From Motilibacter aurantiacus (GTDB taxonomy: Bacteria > Actinomycetota > Actinomycetes > Motilibacterales > Motilibacteraceae): DNA of 64,000 nucleotides. The stretch is taken from NCBI RefSeq assembly GCF_011250645.1, contig NZ_JAANNO010000009.1, forward strand, positions 1 through 64,000, given 5' to 3'. Under the pieces are notes generated by a model. The model worked only from the letters and a program-made list of their open reading frames with translations. It had not been told where the DNA came from and searched no databases. Within the stretch, counting starts at the first letter, position 1; each line of letters opens with the position of its first letter. Shown here piece after piece: positions 38,127 to 45,940 of this stretch. The position numbers and the translations under genes are program-made.

Positions 38127-39020
38127 TCAGCGCAGCGCGTACGCCTCCGCGACCGCCCACATCCACGGCAGCACCAGCGCGGCGGTCGGCACGGTGAGCA
38201 GGGCGGCGGCGCCGCCGTAGGTGAGCGCGGACAGGCCGCGGTGACCGGGCCGCCCGCCGCCGGCGAGGCGACGGACCCGGGCCGCGGCACCGGCCGTCAG
38301 CACCGTGCCGGACGCCGTCGGCGCGGGTACCGGCGTTGCGCTCAGCGCCAGGAGGGCGTTCGCCAGCGGCCGCTCCCCGGCCTTGCGGCGGGCGGCGTCG
38401 TCGGCGAGCATCTCCACGAGCAGCCGCACCGTCTGCAGCGCGGCGCCGCTGCGTACGAGCCGGGGGAACGCCTGGTGCAGCGCGGTGAAGAACTCGACGA
38501 GCAGGTCGTGCCGGGCGCGCAGGTGGGCCCGCTCGTGCGCGACCACAGCCGCCAGCTCGACGGGACTGAGCGAGGCCAGCGTCGCCTCGGACAGGACGAC
38601 GGCGGCCTCGCGGCCGGGCAGGCAGTAGGCGTAGCAGGCCTGGCCCTCGACCACCCGGACGGCCGAGCCGCCGGAGGTCACCGAGCCGCACTGCAGCAGG
38701 TCGACGAGGTCGCGGTGGCGCTGGCGGCGGCGGCGGGTGCGCACCGCCACGCTGAGGCCGGCCGCAGCGAGCCGCCCGCCGAGCAGCCCGGTGACGACGC
38801 CGACGGCCACCGCCGCGGGCAGCCCGTGCGGGTTCAGCAGCAGCTCGGTCGTGGCCCACGTGCCGGCGCCGAGCGCGGCGAGGAAGGCGGCGACCGCGAG
38901 GGCCTGCCAGAGCACGAGAGCGGCCCGCGGCACCTGCCAGGTCCAGCGCGCGCGAGCGAGCACGGCCGGCACCGGGCCGGCCAGCACGAGCGCGAGGAGC
39001 CCCAGCCAGAGCCCGGTCAT
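38127..39020 (-). CDS. BlaR1-type M56 family membrane metallopeptidase
   Basis: A 297-residue membrane protease. Three or four hydrophobic segments flank the zinc site VVAHERAHLRARHD (HExxH). It lacks the penicillin-binding sensor domain of staphylococcal BlaR1, as is usual in actinobacteria. The family acts by inactivating the BlaI repressor when a signal is sensed. Its ATG overlaps the blaI-like stop (ATGA), so repressor and protease are co-translated. Confidence 0.9.
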   Translation of the reverse strand: MTGLWLGLLALVLAGPVPAVLARARWTWQVPRAALVLWQALAVAAFLAALGAGTWATTELLLNPHGLPAAVAVGVVTGLLGGRLAAAGLSVAVRTRRRRQRHRDLVDLLQCGSVTSGGSAVRVVEGQACYAYCLPGREAAVVLSEATLASLSPVELAAVVAHERAHLRARHDLLVEFFTALHQAFPRLVRSGAALQTVRLLVEMLADDAARRKAGERPLANALLALSATPVPAPTASGTVLTAGAAARVRRLAGGGRPGHRGLSALTYGGAAALLTVPTAALVLPWMWAVAEAYALR

Positions 39021-39406
39021 CCCCCGCGCCTCCCGCGGCGCCCCCGGGGGCGGCCCAGCCCGTCGAGCGCCTCGCGCAGCGCCTGCGCCTCCGACGGCGA
39101 CACCTGCTGGACGAAGTGGACGAGGGCAGCGGCCCGGGCCTGCTCGTCGACGTCGCCCAGCGCGTCGACCATGAGCTCGGCGGCCAGCTCCTCACGGCTC
39201 GCGGCCGGGGAGTAGCGGTAGGCCCGCTCGGCGCGCTCCTCGACCGCCAGCCCCTTGCGCGCGAGCCGTTGCAGCACCGTCATGACGGTCGTGTACGCCG
39301 CCTGCCGGGAGGCGCTCAGGCGCTCGTGGACCTCGCGCACGGTGAGCGGCCCGGGCGCGCCCCACAGCTGCGCCATCACGTCGCGCTCCAGGTCTCCCAA
39401 GCCCAC
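39017..39406 (-). CDS. BlaI/MecI-family transcriptional repressor
   Basis: A 129-residue winged-helix repressor (GDLERDVMAQLWG, LTVREVHERLSASRQAAYTT, VMTVLQRLARKGL), with the C-terminal dimer helices reaching an Arg-rich tail. It starts with GTG 39406. A BlaI-type box lies directly upstream (39416-39434) and two more lie before cydA. It therefore probably represses both its own operon and the cytochrome bd operon, with relief through the M56 protease. Confidence 0.93.
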   Translation of the reverse strand: MGLGDLERDVMAQLWGAPGPLTVREVHERLSASRQAAYTTVMTVLQRLARKGLAVEERAERAYRYSPAASREELAAELMVDALGDVDEQARAAALVHFVQQVSPSEAQALREALDGLGRPRGRRGRRGG

Positions 39407-39415
39407 GCACCGAGC

Positions 39416-39434
39416 CTACGACGCAGCGTCGTTG
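39416..39434. promoter_or_regulatory. BlaI-type operator box 1
   Basis: CTACGAC-N5-GTCGTTG, a dyad of the TACKAC/GTMGTA type, located 10 bases upstream of the blaI-like start. It matches boxes 2 and 3 before cydA in sequence and spacer length. Confidence 0.7.
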
Positions 39435-39498
39435 ACCGCGACGGACAGCGCTGAGACAAGAGACACAGGCCGTCGAGGAACACGAGGGACCTTGGTCG

Positions 39499-39536
39499 CT
39501 ACTACTCTTTGTCGTAGGTACTACGCCTCGTCGTAG
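39499..39536. promoter_or_regulatory. BlaI-type operator boxes 2 and 3 upstream of cydA
   Basis: Two abutting 19-bp boxes: CTACTAC-N5-GTCGTAG (39499-39517) and GTACTAC-N5-GTCGTAG (39518-39536). The second ends 14 bases before the cydA ATG and touches its ribosome site, a position that would block expression when bound. No Rex-type site was noticed. Confidence 0.75.
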
Positions 39537-39550
39537 AGAGAAGAAGCGAC

Positions 39551-40963
39551 ATGGACGTCCTCGAGCTCACCCGCCTCCAGTTCGCGGTGACGACGCTCTA
39601 CCACTACCTCTTCGTGCCGCTCTCGATCAGCCTCTCCACCCTGACCGCGGTGCTGCAGACAGCCGCTGTCCGGACCGGCCGGGCCGACTTCCAGCGCCTC
39701 GCCCTCCTCGTCGGCAAGATCCTCATGGCGACGTTCGCGGTCGGCGTGGTCACCGGTCTGGTTCAGGAATTTCAGTTCGGCCTGGGGTGGAGCGACTTCG
39801 CCCGCTTCTACGGGGACGTCTTCGGCCCGACCCTGGCGCTCGAGGGCATGCTCGCGTTCTTCCTCGAGGCGACGTTTCTGGGGCTGTGGTACTTCGGCCG
39901 GGACAAGCTCCCGCGGCTCGCCCACCTGGCGACCATCTGGGTCGTCGCGGTCGGCACGCTGCTGTCGGCGTTCATCATCCTCGCCGCGAACGCCTTCATG
40001 CAGAACCCCGTCGGCTACACCTACGACGAGGAGGCAGGGCGGGCGCACCTCGAGAGCTTCTCGGCCCTGCTGCTCAACGAGGTCAACCTCGCCGCATTCC
40101 CGCACACCGTCGCGGGCGCGTTCATGGGCGGCGGCTCGCTGCTGCTGGCCGTGGCGCTGTGGGGGATGTCCCGCCGGCCGGCCGACACCGCCGCCTGGCG
40201 TACCCTCGGCCGGCTCGGCGCCTGGACGACCGTCCTCGGCGGCGCCGGCACCGCGGTCACCGGAGACGCCCTCGCCAAGGTGATGACGCACGTGCAGCCG
40301 ATGAAGATGGCTGCGGCCGAGGCGCTCTACGCCTCGCGCAGCTCGGCACCCTTCTCCGTCTTCGCGTACGCGCCGCCCGGCGAGGACGAGCCCAGCTGGA
40401 GCCTCGAGATCCCCGGCCTGCTCTCCTTCCTGGGCAAGGGCAGCTTCGGCGCGACGATCTCGGGCATGGGCGACCTGCAGAGCGAGTACGCCGCCCGCTT
40501 CGGCGCCGGTGACTACGTCCCGTGGGTGCCCGTCGCCTTCTGGAGCTTCCGGCTGATGATCGGGGTCGGGCTGGCCGCGGCGGCGCTCGCCGCGGCGTAC
40601 CTCTGGCTGACCCGCAAGGGCAGGCCGCTCCCCGTCCCCCGCGCCCTCTCCCGGCTCGTGCCCGTCCTCGCCTTCGCCCTCCCTCTGCTGCCCGCGGCCG
40701 CCAACTCCTTCGGCTGGGTCTTCACGGAGACCGCCCGCCAGCCGTGGCTCGTGTTCGGCCTCTTCCGCACCGAGGACGGCGTCTCCCTCGGGCTGACGTC
40801 GACCGAGGTGCTGCTCTCGCTCGGCGGTTTCGCGCTCGTGTACGGCCTGCTGGCCCTGGCCTGGGCGCGGCTCGTCCAGCGCCTGCTGCACGCCGGGCTC
40901 CCGCCCGAGGAGCCGGCGCCCGCCGAGCGGGACGACGCCCCCGTCCCGGCCCTGACCTACTGA
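39551..40963 (+). CDS. cydA: Cytochrome bd oxidase subunit I
   Basis: A 470-residue integral membrane subunit that carries the hemes and quinol site of the oxygen-reducing cytochrome bd. Heme ligands are visible: His in TTLYHYLFVPLS near residue 18, His in NLAAFPHTVAGA near 180, and Met in HVQPMKMAAAEAL. The Q-loop is short, and the ETARQPW motif (E. coli GRQPW) is present. Nine membrane segments are expected. It is the first gene of cydA-cydB-cydDC and follows two BlaI-type boxes. Confidence 0.97.
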   Translation: MDVLELTRLQFAVTTLYHYLFVPLSISLSTLTAVLQTAAVRTGRADFQRLALLVGKILMATFAVGVVTGLVQEFQFGLGWSDFARFYGDVFGPTLALEGMLAFFLEATFLGLWYFGRDKLPRLAHLATIWVVAVGTLLSAFIILAANAFMQNPVGYTYDEEAGRAHLESFSALLLNEVNLAAFPHTVAGAFMGGGSLLLAVALWGMSRRPADTAAWRTLGRLGAWTTVLGGAGTAVTGDALAKVMTHVQPMKMAAAEALYASRSSAPFSVFAYAPPGEDEPSWSLEIPGLLSFLGKGSFGATISGMGDLQSEYAARFGAGDYVPWVPVAFWSFRLMIGVGLAAAALAAAYLWLTRKGRPLPVPRALSRLVPVLAFALPLLPAAANSFGWVFTETARQPWLVFGLFRTEDGVSLGLTSTEVLLSLGGFALVYGLLALAWARLVQRLLHAGLPPEEPAPAERDDAPVPALTY

Positions 40964-40978: not shown

Positions 40979-42004
40979 ATGGCGCTGGACCTCCCCACCG
41001 TCTGGCTTGTCCTCGCGATCGCCTCGTGGGTCGCGTTCTTCGTCCTCGAGGGCTTCGACTTCGGGGTCGGCATGCTCGTCGGGCTCACGCGCGGCGCGCA
41101 CCGCGAGGAGCGGCGCGGCGTACTGGTCCGCACCATCGGCCCGGTGTGGGACGGCAACGAGGTCTGGCTCGTCGCCGCGGTGGGCGTCATGTTCGCGGCG
41201 TTCCCGGCCTGGTACGCCTCGCTGCTGTCCGGGCTCTACCTGCCGATGGTGCTGGTCCTGCTGGCCCTGGCGGTCCGTGGCGTGGCCCTCGAGTTCCGCG
41301 GCAAGGTCGACGACCCGCGGTGGCGCGCCCGGTGCGACATGGCGCTGGCCGCGGCGTCGCTGGCCACGGCAGCCCTCTTCGGGGCGGTGCTCGCGGTGCT
41401 CGCCCAGGGCCTCCCGCTCGGGCCCGACGGGGAGGTGCGCGGCACCGGGGCGGGCCGCTCCCTGGGCCTCGTGCTCACCGGCCCCGCCCTGCTCGGGGCG
41501 GTGGCCGGCGTCGCGGCCTGCCTGCTGCAGGGCGCTGCGTTCCTCGCACTGCGCACCGAGGGGAGGCAGCGGCAGGCCGCACGTCGGGCGGCCGGGAGGC
41601 TCGCCCCGGCCGTCGGCCTGGCCGCCGCGCTCGCCGGGCTGGCCACGGGCGCGGGCCTCCTGGTGCTGGCGGGCATCGCGGCCGGGCTCGCCGGGCTCGC
41701 CGCGCTCCGCGCCCGGGAGGCGCTGACGTTCGCCGCGAGCAGTAGCGCGGTCGCGCTCGCCGTCGTGGCCGTCTTCGCCTCCAGACTGCCCACGCTGATG
41801 CCCAGCACGCTCGCGGAGGAGTGGTCACTGACGCTGCACGGCGGAGCAGCCTCGCCGTACGCACTGCGCGCCCTGTCCGTCGCCGCAGTGGTGATCCTGC
41901 CGGGCGTGCTCGTCTACCAGGCCTGGTCGTACTGGGTCTTCCGGCAGCGCGTCGCGGGGCCTCGGGTCGCACCCGTGCTCCCGTCGCAGGCGGCCCGCTC
42001 GTGA
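40979..42004 (+). CDS. cydB: Cytochrome bd oxidase subunit II
   Basis: A 341-residue membrane subunit with eight or nine hydrophobic helices. The family N-terminus WVAFFVLEGFDFGVGML and the loop GPVWDGNEVWLV are clear. It forms the heterodimer with CydA. It begins 15 bases after the cydA stop, and its TGA overlaps the GTG of the downstream exporter gene. Confidence 0.97.
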   Translation: MALDLPTVWLVLAIASWVAFFVLEGFDFGVGMLVGLTRGAHREERRGVLVRTIGPVWDGNEVWLVAAVGVMFAAFPAWYASLLSGLYLPMVLVLLALAVRGVALEFRGKVDDPRWRARCDMALAAASLATAALFGAVLAVLAQGLPLGPDGEVRGTGAGRSLGLVLTGPALLGAVAGVAACLLQGAAFLALRTEGRQRQAARRAAGRLAPAVGLAAALAGLATGAGLLVLAGIAAGLAGLAALRAREALTFAASSSAVALAVVAVFASRLPTLMPSTLAEEWSLTLHGGAASPYALRALSVAAVVILPGVLVYQAWSYWVFRQRVAGPRVAPVLPSQAARS

Positions 42005-45000
42005 AGCCGCTGGACCCGCGGCTGCTCCGCCGCTCCCGGCACGCGCGGGTGGGCAGCGCGGCACTGGCCCTCACCGGGGCACTGGGCAGCGGGCTCGCGG
42101 TCGCCCAGGTCTTCGCGGTCGTCGGGCTCGTGTCGCCGGTGGCCGACCCGGGCCGCCTCCCGGCGCCGGCCACGCGGCTGCTGCCCGCGGCGGCCGTGCT
42201 GGCCGGGCTGGTGCTGGCTGCCGCGGCGGTGCGCTGGGCCGAGCAGCTGCTGGCGGTCCGGGTGGCGACGGCCGTCCAGGGCGAGCTGCGGTCGGCGGCG
42301 CTGCGGGCGGCCCTCCCGGTCGCCGGGCAGCTCGGGGTCGCCCGCGTCGCGACCCTGCTGACCTCCGGGCTGGCGGCCCTGGAGCCCTGGTTCACCGCGT
42401 ACCTGCCCTCGCTCGTCGTCGCCGCCGTGCTGCCGGTCGCCGTCGTGGCCGTTCTGGCCCTGCTCGACCCTGCGACGGCGGTCACCGTCGCCGTCACCCT
42501 GCCGCTGGTCCCGCTCTTCGCCGCCCTGCTCGGCTGGACCGCCCAGCGCCGGGCCGAGCGGCAGTGGCACGCGATGAGCCGGCTCGCCGCGCACTTCCTG
42601 GACGCCGTGCAGGGCCTGGCCACGCTGCGGGCGTACGGCAGGGCGGAGCGCCAGGCCGGCGTGGTCGCGGCAGCGACGGACGCGCACCGGCGCTCCACCC
42701 TCTCGGTGCTGCGTGTCGCCTTCCTGTCCTCCACCGCGCTCGACCTGGTCGGGACCGTCTCCGTCGGGCTGGTCGCCGTCTCCGCCGGCCTGCGCCTGGT
42801 CGACGGAAGCCTCGATCTGCGAACAGCGTTGCTGGTGATCCTGCTCGCTCCTCATGCCTACGCCCCGCTGCGCGAGGTCGGTGCCCGCTTCCACGCCAGC
42901 GCGGACGCGCTCGCCGTGCTGGACGAGCTCGACGCGGTGCTCGCGCGCGGCCCCGGTGCCCCGCGAGCCCTGAAGCAGGTTCCCGGACTGTGCGTGCGCG
43001 GGCTGGCCGCCTCGCCCGGAGGCGCCGACGGCCCCCGCTGCGGCCCCCTGGACCTCGACGTGCGCCCCGGCGAGCTGGTGGCCCTGACCGGCCCGTCCGG
43101 GGCGGGGAAGACGACCCTGCTACGGGCCTGCGCGGGGCTGTCGGCGTACGACGGCGAGCTGGCCCGCGCCGAGCGGGTCGCGTACCTGCCGCAGCGGCCT
43201 ACCTTCCCGGCGGCCCGCACCGCGCGCGAGGCCGTCACTGCGGGCCGGCCGGACGTGCCCGAGGCGGCGCTCCGGGCGGCGCTGGACGACGCAGGGGTCG
43301 AGCCCCCCGTGACCCTCGACACCCGGGTCGGCGAGCGGGGCGCCGGGCTGTCCGCGGGCCAGCGGCAGCGGCTCGCCCTGGCCCGGACGTTCCTCACCGC
43401 CCGCGGCGGCGCCCAGCTGCTGCTGCTCGACGAGCCGACGGCGCACCTGGACGCGGCGGCGGAGGCGCGTGTGGTGACGGCACTGCGTCGGCTCGCCGAC
43501 GACGGGTACGCAGTGCTCGCCGTCGCGCACCGGCCGGCGCTCGTGGCGGCCGCCGACCGGGTCGTGCACCTGCCCGCGCGGCCAACCGTGCCGGCTCCTG
43601 CCCCGCCGGCGCCGCGGCGCACCACGACCGGGGCGGGCGCGCAGCTCCCGGCGGCGCCGGTCACCGACCGCTGGCACCGCGCCCGCGACCTGCTCGCCGT
43701 TCTCGTCGGGGTGGCGGCCGCGCTCACCGGCCTCGGGCTGGTGGCGGCCGCGTCCTGGCTGATCGCCCGTGCAGCCGGGTCCCCGCCCGTGCTCGCGCTC
43801 TCGCTCGCGGTCGTCGCCGTGCGCGGCACCGCGGTCGCACGGCCGCTCCTGCGCTACGTCGAGCGCCTGCTCACCCACGAGGTCGCGCTCCGCCGGCTCG
43901 CCGAGTGGAGGTCGGAGGTCTACGCGCAGCTCGTGCCCCGCGTGCCCGGCCGGCACGTGCCCCGCCGCGGTGACCTGCTGACCCGGCTCGTCGCCGACGT
44001 CGACGCGCGCGCCGACGTGCGGGTGCGGTGGGCGCAGCCGGTGCTGGTCACGGCAGTGGCGGGCGCGGTCGCGCTCGCCGGGGCGTACGCGATCTGCCCA
44101 CCGGCCGCGACGGCCGCACTGCCGCTCCTGCTGCTGGCCGGGGTGGCCGCGCCCCTTGCCGCGGCCATCGGGGCGGGACGGCTCGCGGCGCGGCAGGCGG
44201 CCGCGGACGCCCGGCTGCAGGAAGAGGTGCTCGAGGCCCTCGACGGTGCCGACGACCTGCTGACGCTGCCGGCCGGGGCGGCCGGGGCTGCGGCCGGTGT
44301 GCAGGCCGCGGGACGCGCCTGCGACAGCGCCGCCCGTGCCCGCGCCCGCGTCGCGGGGCTCGCGGACGCGCTGGTCGGAGCCGGCTCCGGCCTGCTGCCT
44401 GCGGCCGTGGCTCTCGCGGCCGCGCCGGCCGTCGTCGCCGGCGAGCTGGCCCGCACCTCCTACGCCGTGCTGACCCTCGCCGCTCTGGGCGCCGGCGAGC
44501 TGCTCGCCCCGCTGCCGGCGGCGGCGCGGGCCCGCTCGCGCGGCTCGGTGGCCCGGGCGCGGCTGGCCGAGGTGCTGGGCACCGCACCGGCGGCGACCGA
44601 GCCCGCCGCCCCGCTCCCGCTGCCCGCGGGGACGCACCTGCAGCTGCGGGGCGTCCACGCCGGCTGGCAGGCCGGGAACCAGGTGCTGCGCGGGGTCGAC
44701 CTCGACCTGCCCGCGGGGGCGGTCGTGGGCGTCGTCGGCGCGTCCGGCAGCGGGAAGTCGACGCTGGGGGCGGTGCTGCTGCGCCTGCTCGACGTATCGG
44801 CGGGCAGCGTGCGGCTGGGCGGTGCAGAGCTCGCGCGGCTGCCCGGGGACGCGGTGCGCCGGCGGGTCGGGCACCTGTCCGACGACGAGCACGTGTTCGC
44901 CACCACGCTCCGGCAGAACCTCGCGCTGGCCCGGCCGGACGCCTCGGACGACCAACTGGTGCGCGCGCTCGGCCGCGCGCGCCTGGGCGACTGGTACGCC

Positions 45001-45336
45001 CGACTGCCCGGCGGCCTCGACACCCAGCTCGGCGACGGCGGCCGCGCCCTGTCCGGTGGCGAGCGACGCAGGCTCGCCATGGCCCGGGCACTGCTCGCCG
45101 ACCTGCCCGTGCTGGTCCTCGACGAGCCGACCGAGGGGCTGGACGAGCCCACGGCCCGCGCCCTCCTGACGGACCTGCTCGGAGCCGCGGACGGCCGCAC
45201 CGTCCTGCTGCTGACCCACCGACCGGAGGGGCTGGAGGCCGCCGACGCCGTCCTCCGGCTCGAGCACGGGGTGCTCCACCCGCACGAGCAGCCCGCAGCC
45301 CTGCCGCGGGTGGCCGACGAGCCGGTGACCTGCTGA
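42001..45336 (+). CDS. cydDC: Fused CydDC thiol/heme ABC exporter needed for cytochrome bd assembly
   Basis: A 1111-residue fusion of CydD and CydC. Half one has membrane helices (about residues 15-320) and an ATPase with GPSGAGKTT, LSAGQRQR and LLLLDEPTAHLD. Half two, after a Pro/Ala linker near 535, has helices (about 560-830) and an ATPase with GASGSGKST, LSGGERRR and LVLDEPTEGLD. In E. coli the two halves are separate proteins exporting thiols or heme to the outer face; the single-chain form is common in actinobacteria. GTG 42001 overlaps the cydB stop. Confidence 0.94.
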   Translation: MKPLDPRLLRRSRHARVGSAALALTGALGSGLAVAQVFAVVGLVSPVADPGRLPAPATRLLPAAAVLAGLVLAAAAVRWAEQLLAVRVATAVQGELRSAALRAALPVAGQLGVARVATLLTSGLAALEPWFTAYLPSLVVAAVLPVAVVAVLALLDPATAVTVAVTLPLVPLFAALLGWTAQRRAERQWHAMSRLAAHFLDAVQGLATLRAYGRAERQAGVVAAATDAHRRSTLSVLRVAFLSSTALDLVGTVSVGLVAVSAGLRLVDGSLDLRTALLVILLAPHAYAPLREVGARFHASADALAVLDELDAVLARGPGAPRALKQVPGLCVRGLAASPGGADGPRCGPLDLDVRPGELVALTGPSGAGKTTLLRACAGLSAYDGELARAERVAYLPQRPTFPAARTAREAVTAGRPDVPEAALRAALDDAGVEPPVTLDTRVGERGAGLSAGQRQRLALARTFLTARGGAQLLLLDEPTAHLDAAAEARVVTALRRLADDGYAVLAVAHRPALVAAADRVVHLPARPTVPAPAPPAPRRTTTGAGAQLPAAPVTDRWHRARDLLAVLVGVAAALTGLGLVAAASWLIARAAGSPPVLALSLAVVAVRGTAVARPLLRYVERLLTHEVALRRLAEWRSEVYAQLVPRVPGRHVPRRGDLLTRLVADVDARADVRVRWAQPVLVTAVAGAVALAGAYAICPPAATAALPLLLLAGVAAPLAAAIGAGRLAARQAAADARLQEEVLEALDGADDLLTLPAGAAGAAAGVQAAGRACDSAARARARVAGLADALVGAGSGLLPAAVALAAAPAVVAGELARTSYAVLTLAALGAGELLAPLPAAARARSRGSVARARLAEVLGTAPAATEPAAPLPLPAGTHLQLRGVHAGWQAGNQVLRGVDLDLPAGAVVGVVGASGSGKSTLGAVLLRLLDVSAGSVRLGGAELARLPGDAVRRRVGHLSDDEHVFATTLRQNLALARPDASDDQLVRALGRARLGDWYARLPGGLDTQLGDGGRALSGGERRRLAMARALLADLPVLVLDEPTEGLDEPTARALLTDLLGAADGRTVLLLTHRPEGLEAADAVLRLEHGVLHPHEQPAALPRVADEPVTC

Positions 45337-45345
45337 GCTCTCCGC

Positions 45346-45816
45346 TCAGCGGTAGCTGAAGACGGTCTCGTTGTAGCGGTGCAGCAGCTTGGCGAAGAGG
45401 TTCACGTCGGCCTCGTCCCAGCTCGCGAGCAGCTCGCCGAAGTACTCGCGACGGGCCTCCCTCATCCGCCGGATGCGCGCGCGCCCGTCCTCGGTGATCT
45501 TGAGCACCGTCGCCCTGCCGTCGGTCTCGTCCGGGTGGCGCTCCACCAGGCCGAGCTTCTCCAGGGTGGCGACCTGCCGGCTGATCGTCGGCTTGCCGAC
45601 GCCGAAGAAGGCGGCGAGGTCGGTGCCGCGCGCCCCGTCCACCTGGTCCAGCCGGATCAACAGCCCGTACGCGTCGTTCTCGAGCTCCGGGTGGATCTGG
45701 CGCGCGAACTCCTGGGAGGTCCCGCGGGCCCGGCGCAGCAGGACGGTGAGCTCCTGCTCGACGCCGACGTGACCGGTGCGCTGGGCCGTGCCCTCGGTGT
45801 CACTGGCTCCGGTCAT
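45346..45816 (-). CDS. MarR-family transcriptional regulator
   Basis: A 156-residue winged-helix regulator (ARGTDLAAFFGVGKPTISRQ as the recognition region, then the wing PDETDGRATVLKITEDG). ATG 45816 has AAAGGG seven bases upstream. It is convergent with cydDC and lies between it and the deacetylase gene. An inverted repeat CACCGC-N7-GCGGTG lies 26 bases upstream of the start and may be its own operator. Its ligand is unknown. Confidence 0.9.
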   Translation of the reverse strand: MTGASDTEGTAQRTGHVGVEQELTVLLRRARGTSQEFARQIHPELENDAYGLLIRLDQVDGARGTDLAAFFGVGKPTISRQVATLEKLGLVERHPDETDGRATVLKITEDGRARIRRMREARREYFGELLASWDEADVNLFAKLLHRYNETVFSYR

Positions 45817-45841
45817 GCCACGCCCTTTCTCGTGCCTGGTC

Positions 45842-45860
45842 CACCGCAGCGTTCGCGGTG
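45842..45860. promoter_or_regulatory. Inverted repeat upstream of marR-like gene
   Basis: CACCGC-N7-GCGGTG, a perfect 6-bp dyad, close to the MarR start. MarR proteins usually bind such dyads over their own promoter. Evidence is position only. Confidence 0.35.
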
Positions 45861-45940
45861 AGCCCACCCTGCCATGGCACGCGCCGGACGGGCGCACGAC
45901 GCGGCGACGCTCGACCCCCCGCTCAGGGGCGTCGCGGGCG

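Follow-up and report, generated by a model that had tools for sequence, protein, structure and literature searches.

The window, by which we mean the whole 64-kb stretch of DNA analysed, carries a gene for the winged-helix repressor BlaI and a gene for a BlaR1-like membrane zinc protease, and both are transcribed away from the genes for cytochrome bd (Table 1). The blaI and protease genes overlap by 4 bp, while on the other side of the intergenic gap cydA, cydB and the gene for a fused CydDC exporter lie together in one operon, which can be called cydABDC on that count. The profile matches agree with the original prediction that a BlaI/protease pair sits beside the terminal oxidase and its exporter rather than beside a beta-lactamase: the only PF13354 match in the genome is on another contig (C4), and no exact box was found at that gene in a genome-wide box search. 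A linked beta-lactamase or penicillin-binding protein (PBP) target is a property of the named BlaI/MecI systems and not of the protein family; the neighbour found here is cydABDC. A MarR-family regulator gene converges on cydDC, with no link to the boxes seen.

Table 1. Genes and palindromic boxes of the blaI–cydA locus (window coordinates)
Feature	Position	Strand	Sequence	Remarks
BlaR1-like membrane zinc protease (M56/M48 type)	38127..39020	-		297 aa
blaI, winged-helix repressor	39017..39406	-		129 aa; PF03965 95.2 bits, cut-off 22.6
Box 1	39417-39433		TACGACGCAGCGTCGTT	One mismatch to TACKAC-N5-GTMGTA; 10 bp from blaI start codon
Box 2	39500-39516		TACTACTCTTTGTCGTA	Exact match to TACKAC-N5-GTMGTA
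Box 3	39519-39535		TACTACGCCTCGTCGTA	Exact match; 15 bp from cydA start codon
cydA, cytochrome bd subunit I	39551..40963	+		PF01654 450.9 bits
cydB, cytochrome bd subunit II	40979..42004	+		PF02322 288.5 bits; TIGR00203 237.1 bits, over cut-off
cydDC, fused thiol-reductant ABC exporter	42001..45336	+		TIGR02857 (CydD) 648.6 bits, TIGR02868 (CydC) 589.7 bits, both over cut-off
MarR-family regulator	45346-45897	-		Convergent to cydDC

Between the divergent blaI and cydA genes there are three palindromes of the form TACKAC-N5-GTMGTA. As had been described, they share a 5-bp spacer and the core ACKAC-N5-GTCGT, which occurs in exact form at 39418-39432, 39501-39515 and 39520-39534 and nowhere else in the window. 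One box precedes blaI and two precede cydA, the latter nearly abutting with a gap of 2 bp (19 bp from centre to centre); box 3 is directly followed by GAGAGAAGAAGCGAC and then by the cydA ATG at 39551, and thus touches the putative ribosome site. The stronger, exact boxes 2 and 3 adjoin cydA, and the weaker box 1 adjoins blaI. Throughout the genome (4.59 Mb) TACKAC-N5-GTMGTA is matched exactly nowhere but at boxes 2 and 3. With the window (74% GC) described by an order-2 Markov model, 0.46 exact sites are expected per genome, and the value for two within this gap is about 8e-11.

The core with one mismatch is no commoner in the window than chance would have it (14 occurrences vs 11.3 expected), so that the signal resides in exact, clustered sites. 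Genome-wide, one-mismatch boxes (23) do not rise above a reversed-pattern control (39), and the matches elsewhere in the genome are mostly inside coding sequence; we therefore dropped the idea of a wider regulon built from degenerate single boxes and claim none for this genome. We likewise dropped a -10 element of the form TANNNT that would overlap the end of the box, since it is not enriched (6/36). The same genome encodes a second CydA, 51% identical (G000 contig C8:137711-139105), and the absence of a box before its gene serves as an internal negative control. In a relative of the same genus (G001) neither CydA nor BlaI was detected at the search sensitivity used; together with the unboxed second CydA this makes the boxed cyd cassette patchy within the family.

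The repressor and its protease partner

The solved structure nearest to the window BlaI is that of M. tuberculosis BlaI (2G9W, E 1.5e-34), and the BlaI profile also matches S. aureus BlaI (1SD4) and MecI (1OKR). All 42 BlaI sequences compared have Phe98, whose counterpart in the alignment with S. aureus BlaI is Phe102; this residue occupies P1' of the cleavage site mapped there by experiment (PMC9834060). The palindromes at its own gene and at cydA are both present and conserved, and represent putative operators.

In the protease the HEXXH zinc motif (H162, E163 and H166) is invariant in 36 homologues. The predicted model is confident (pLDDT 90.2), and its best structural matches are to S. aureus BlaR1 (8EXS, Z 11.4 over 223 residues; 8EXT, Z 11.1 over 211), where it covers residues 1-289, that is the transmembrane and protease part. 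Ste24/ZMPSTE24 of the M48 family come next at Z about 10, a small lead for BlaR1. The original assignment to M56 agrees with the BlaR1 fold and the HEXXH motif, but not with the M56 profile PF05569, which scores 23.5 bits and stays under its cut-off of 31, the M48 model PF01435 reaching 35.4 bits; the protein is best called 'BlaR1-like', and PF05569 does not file it as M56. In the predicted model the chain ends after the last helix, at residue 297, leaving no extracytoplasmic penicillin-binding sensor domain, which argues against direct binding of beta-lactams by the protease.

Boxes before cydA across Actinobacteria

The association with cydA was recovered in scans that used no gene information and searched for two boxes 0-8 bp apart. 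This tandem pattern occurs in 39 of 393 Actinomycetes genomes and its reverse in none of them (0/393), and in each of the 30 loci retrieved for these matches cydA starts 15-57 bp past the last box. In GTDB genomes, cydA lies within 150 bp of tandem boxes in 110 of 120 loci among the matches listed, which also hold a probable 111th (L109) with a cydA start visible at its cut end. The hosts include Kineococcus, Micromonospora, Actinoplanes, Actinomycetospora, Nocardioides, Aeromicrobium, Phytoactinopolyspora, Phycicoccus, Knoellia, Flexivirga, Actinoallomurus and Tsukamurella, and the centre-to-centre spacings are most often 19 bp and 22-25 bp. The blaI and protease genes are kept together in most loci. 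In several families the BlaI-M56 pair is divergent from cydA, with a BlaI just 50-60% identical to that of the window; boxes also precede cydA in Micromonospora, Tsukamurella and others, though BlaI is encoded elsewhere. Micromonospora (L078, L096, L102, L129, L133 and others) has in addition a second gene order, in which a BlaI-M56 pair is followed by boxes spaced 25 bp and then by a distant cydA in the same direction (about 37% identical), so that the link between box and cydA arose or was kept in two gene orders. Another cyd operon of Micromonospora is boxed with no BlaI nearby.

A cydA promoter was examined in 63 genomes, 48 of them BlaI-bearing and 15 BlaI-less. A box with at most one mismatch precedes cydA in 26/48 of the former vs 0/15 of the latter (Fisher p = 1.4e-4), and an exact box in 21/48 vs 0/15 (p = 0.0012), p-values that are indicative only, the compared genomes being related and not independent samples. 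The TAC-type box is absent before cydA in 22 of the 48 BlaI-bearing genomes. At least four of these have a different box type, TTC, and others without a TAC-type box (e.g. Streptomyces-sized genomes) carry other BlaI paralogues. The TTC-type palindrome, TTCTAC-N5-GTAGAA, stands in the same place in four genomes with a divergent BlaI and no TAC box, and likewise in a more distant group (f18); altogether the type is present in three family groups. Leu42 and Glu49 in the recognition-helix region (M42L, A49E) are found in all eight TTC-type BlaIs examined and in none of 47 distinct TAC-type helices, where position 42 is Met in 46 and Thr in one. This co-variation of helix and box strongly suggests that it is BlaI itself that reads the box.

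In mycobacteria the box precedes cydA in exact form in 7/7 Mycobacteriaceae of the first sample and in each of the 30 Mycobacterium species fetched, 40-94 bp upstream of the gene, with BlaI encoded elsewhere. These were assigned to Mycobacterium by the synteny of blaI with urease genes and gnd, and by their CydA, which resembles the structures from M. smegmatis and M. tuberculosis. BlaI is nearly universal in the group (390 of 396 mycobacterial genomes); M. tuberculosis lies outside this genome set, in which the best BlaI is 95% identical. In two genomes (G007 and G724) exact TACTAC-N5-GTMGTA sites occur genome-wide only before blaI, cydA and the atpI-atpB operon, while in two of 11 genomes checked (G659 and G718) blaI and atp are boxed and no cydA is, a gene which itself is possibly absent from them. 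BlaI binds the Rv1303-atp promoter in EMSA and represses the Rv1303-atp operon (PMC12565901). A common box before blaI, cydA and this published target ties the box to BlaI. The parallel with mycobacterial ATP synthase, originally drawn in support of a respiratory role, is apt, and it reaches further than was foreseen: mycobacterial cydA is itself boxed.

Probable control of cytochrome bd by BlaI and its alternatives

A BlaI and membrane protease pair very probably switches cytochrome bd in this actinomycete. What was predicted for the cyd operon finds support in the sequences on several counts, namely the tandem boxes at cydA, the presence of BlaI and the helix co-variation, with the genes, the conservation of the boxes and their specificity for cydA promoters being directly legible there. 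We envisage dimeric BlaI on all three palindromes, with boxes 2 and 3 acting jointly to block the cydA promoter and hold cydABDC down, and box 1 making blaI and the protease self-limiting through autoregulation. A membrane, respiratory or cell-wall signal would activate the BlaR1-like protease, devoid of a penicillin sensor, which would then cut BlaI next to the invariant Phe98; the repressor would come off the DNA, allowing induction of cytochrome bd. This mechanism as a whole, in which BlaI represses cydABDC from boxes 2 and 3 and is released by the protease, we consider highly likely. What we infer is that BlaI binds in this species, that it represses and does not activate, and that proteolysis releases it; the position of the boxes alone is compatible with either sign of control. 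Other regulators, Crp for one, may act at cydA beside BlaI.

Since divergent blaI and cydA share the gap here, the boxes could serve BlaI autoregulation alone, with cydA a mere bystander under Rex, Crp or another regulator; in M. smegmatis cydAB is known to be activated by Crp1, and Rex regulates cydAB in Streptomyces (PMC7739888). This is very improbable given that the two good boxes adjoin cydA and the weaker one blaI, and that cydA is boxed in mycobacteria, Micromonospora, Tsukamurella and others where blaI is not its neighbour. The Rex operator TTGTGAA-N6-TTCACAA is not found with three or fewer mismatches in the 350 bp before cydA, nor do any of the Rex-type sites genome-wide fall at the cydA locus, and Rex control of the window cydA was rejected on these grounds. 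The reading of the boxes by the window BlaI is a prediction from sequence, and another DNA-binding protein might read them with BlaI merely linked genetically, but the chances of this are slimmer still: the 15 BlaI-less genomes are without boxes before cydA, mycobacteria have the same box before blaI and the published BlaI target atp, and helix and operator co-vary across three family groups.

More weight attaches to the possibility that BlaI controls cydA and is released without proteolysis, either through CopY-like sensing of a small molecule or metal or because the protease has another substrate. The protease's missing extracytoplasmic sensor domain speaks for it, as does a weak resemblance of BlaI to CopY (35.3 bits with TIGR02698), but the score falls far under the CopY cut-off of 121.95, the blaI and protease genes stay together in most loci, and both the catalytic residues of the protease and Phe98 at the aligned cleavage site are invariant. 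We regard non-proteolytic release as unlikely, if worth keeping in mind, and favour cleavage of BlaI by its partner.

Relation to known systems and further boxed genes

Like M. tuberculosis BlaI (Rv1846c) and Rv1845c, the window system combines a BlaI to which that protein is the nearest of known structure with an M56 partner without penicillin-binding domain, and the box type before blaI and atp is common across mycobacteria. In contrast to M. tuberculosis BlaI, whose published targets are blaC, atp and others, the window pair adjoins cydABDC, and the exact sites of its genome are at cydA only. With S. aureus BlaI-BlaR1 and MecI-MecR1 the system shares the repressor family, the fold of the transmembrane protease and the cleavage-site Phe, but it has neither a penicillin sensor nor a beta-lactamase or PBP2a target, and the operator sequence differs. 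Rex and Crp exert transcriptional control over the cytochrome bd operon in other actinobacteria (PMC7739888), as BlaI would here, though proteins and sites differ and no Rex-like site precedes the window cydA. The type of switch is thus known, while its respiratory target is widely conserved and apparently undescribed: no report of BlaI control of cydA was found in the mostly open-access literature searched.

Cytochrome bd aids mycobacteria in tolerating respiratory inhibitors, and its induction in these organisms is so far only partly explained. For the M. tuberculosis BlaI regulon, Sala et al. 2009 reportedly list five loci, with atp and blaC among them but not cydA. With both Crp sites mutated, M. 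smegmatis cydA is still induced 7.3-fold, and an additional cis-element was suggested by the authors, whose own candidate is a different, upstream 20-bp stretch (PMC7739888). BlaI is a candidate for this Crp-independent induction even though the authors favour that other stretch, and the box conserved in 30/30 Mycobacterium species is a directly testable candidate for the site of the missing cydA regulator. If true, cytochrome bd and ATP synthase would be on one switch, and the 'penicillinase repressor' would be recast as a respiratory regulator. It is even conceivable, though we advance this tentatively and with some doubt, that BlaI is an ancestral respiratory regulator in Actinobacteria, with cytochrome bd, ATP synthase and, depending on lineage, further electron-transport genes (for a nitric oxide reductase or a bc1-type cytochrome b) under joint control, exerted through a membrane protease that lacks a penicillin sensor and monitors the membrane or respiratory chain; beta-lactamase control would then be a side branch.

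Boxes were also seen at other genes. In two mycobacterial genomes a NorB-type nitric oxide reductase gene (PF22085) lies behind an exact BlaI-type box (L352:1501-1517 in G659, and L354 in G718), and in Mycobacterium sp. D16R12 tandem boxes (L161:2648-2687) lie ahead of a gene for what, from its translation alone, looks like a bc1-type cytochrome b (QcrB); both fit the respiratory theme. In Nocardioides, tandem boxes between divergent genes (L118:5986-6025 and L142:6811-6850), one of which encodes a membrane protein without Pfam match, may mark a further target. In an Actinomycetota MAG, tandem boxes (L174:1177-1217) separate a BlaI-M56 pair from a divergently encoded membrane protein which, by reading alone, resembles the PepSY type. 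Outside Actinobacteria, the tandem pattern is followed by BlaI-like and M56-like genes in a Roseburia MAG (L106) and a Hydrogenedentota MAG (L151), an arrangement that looks like autoregulation.
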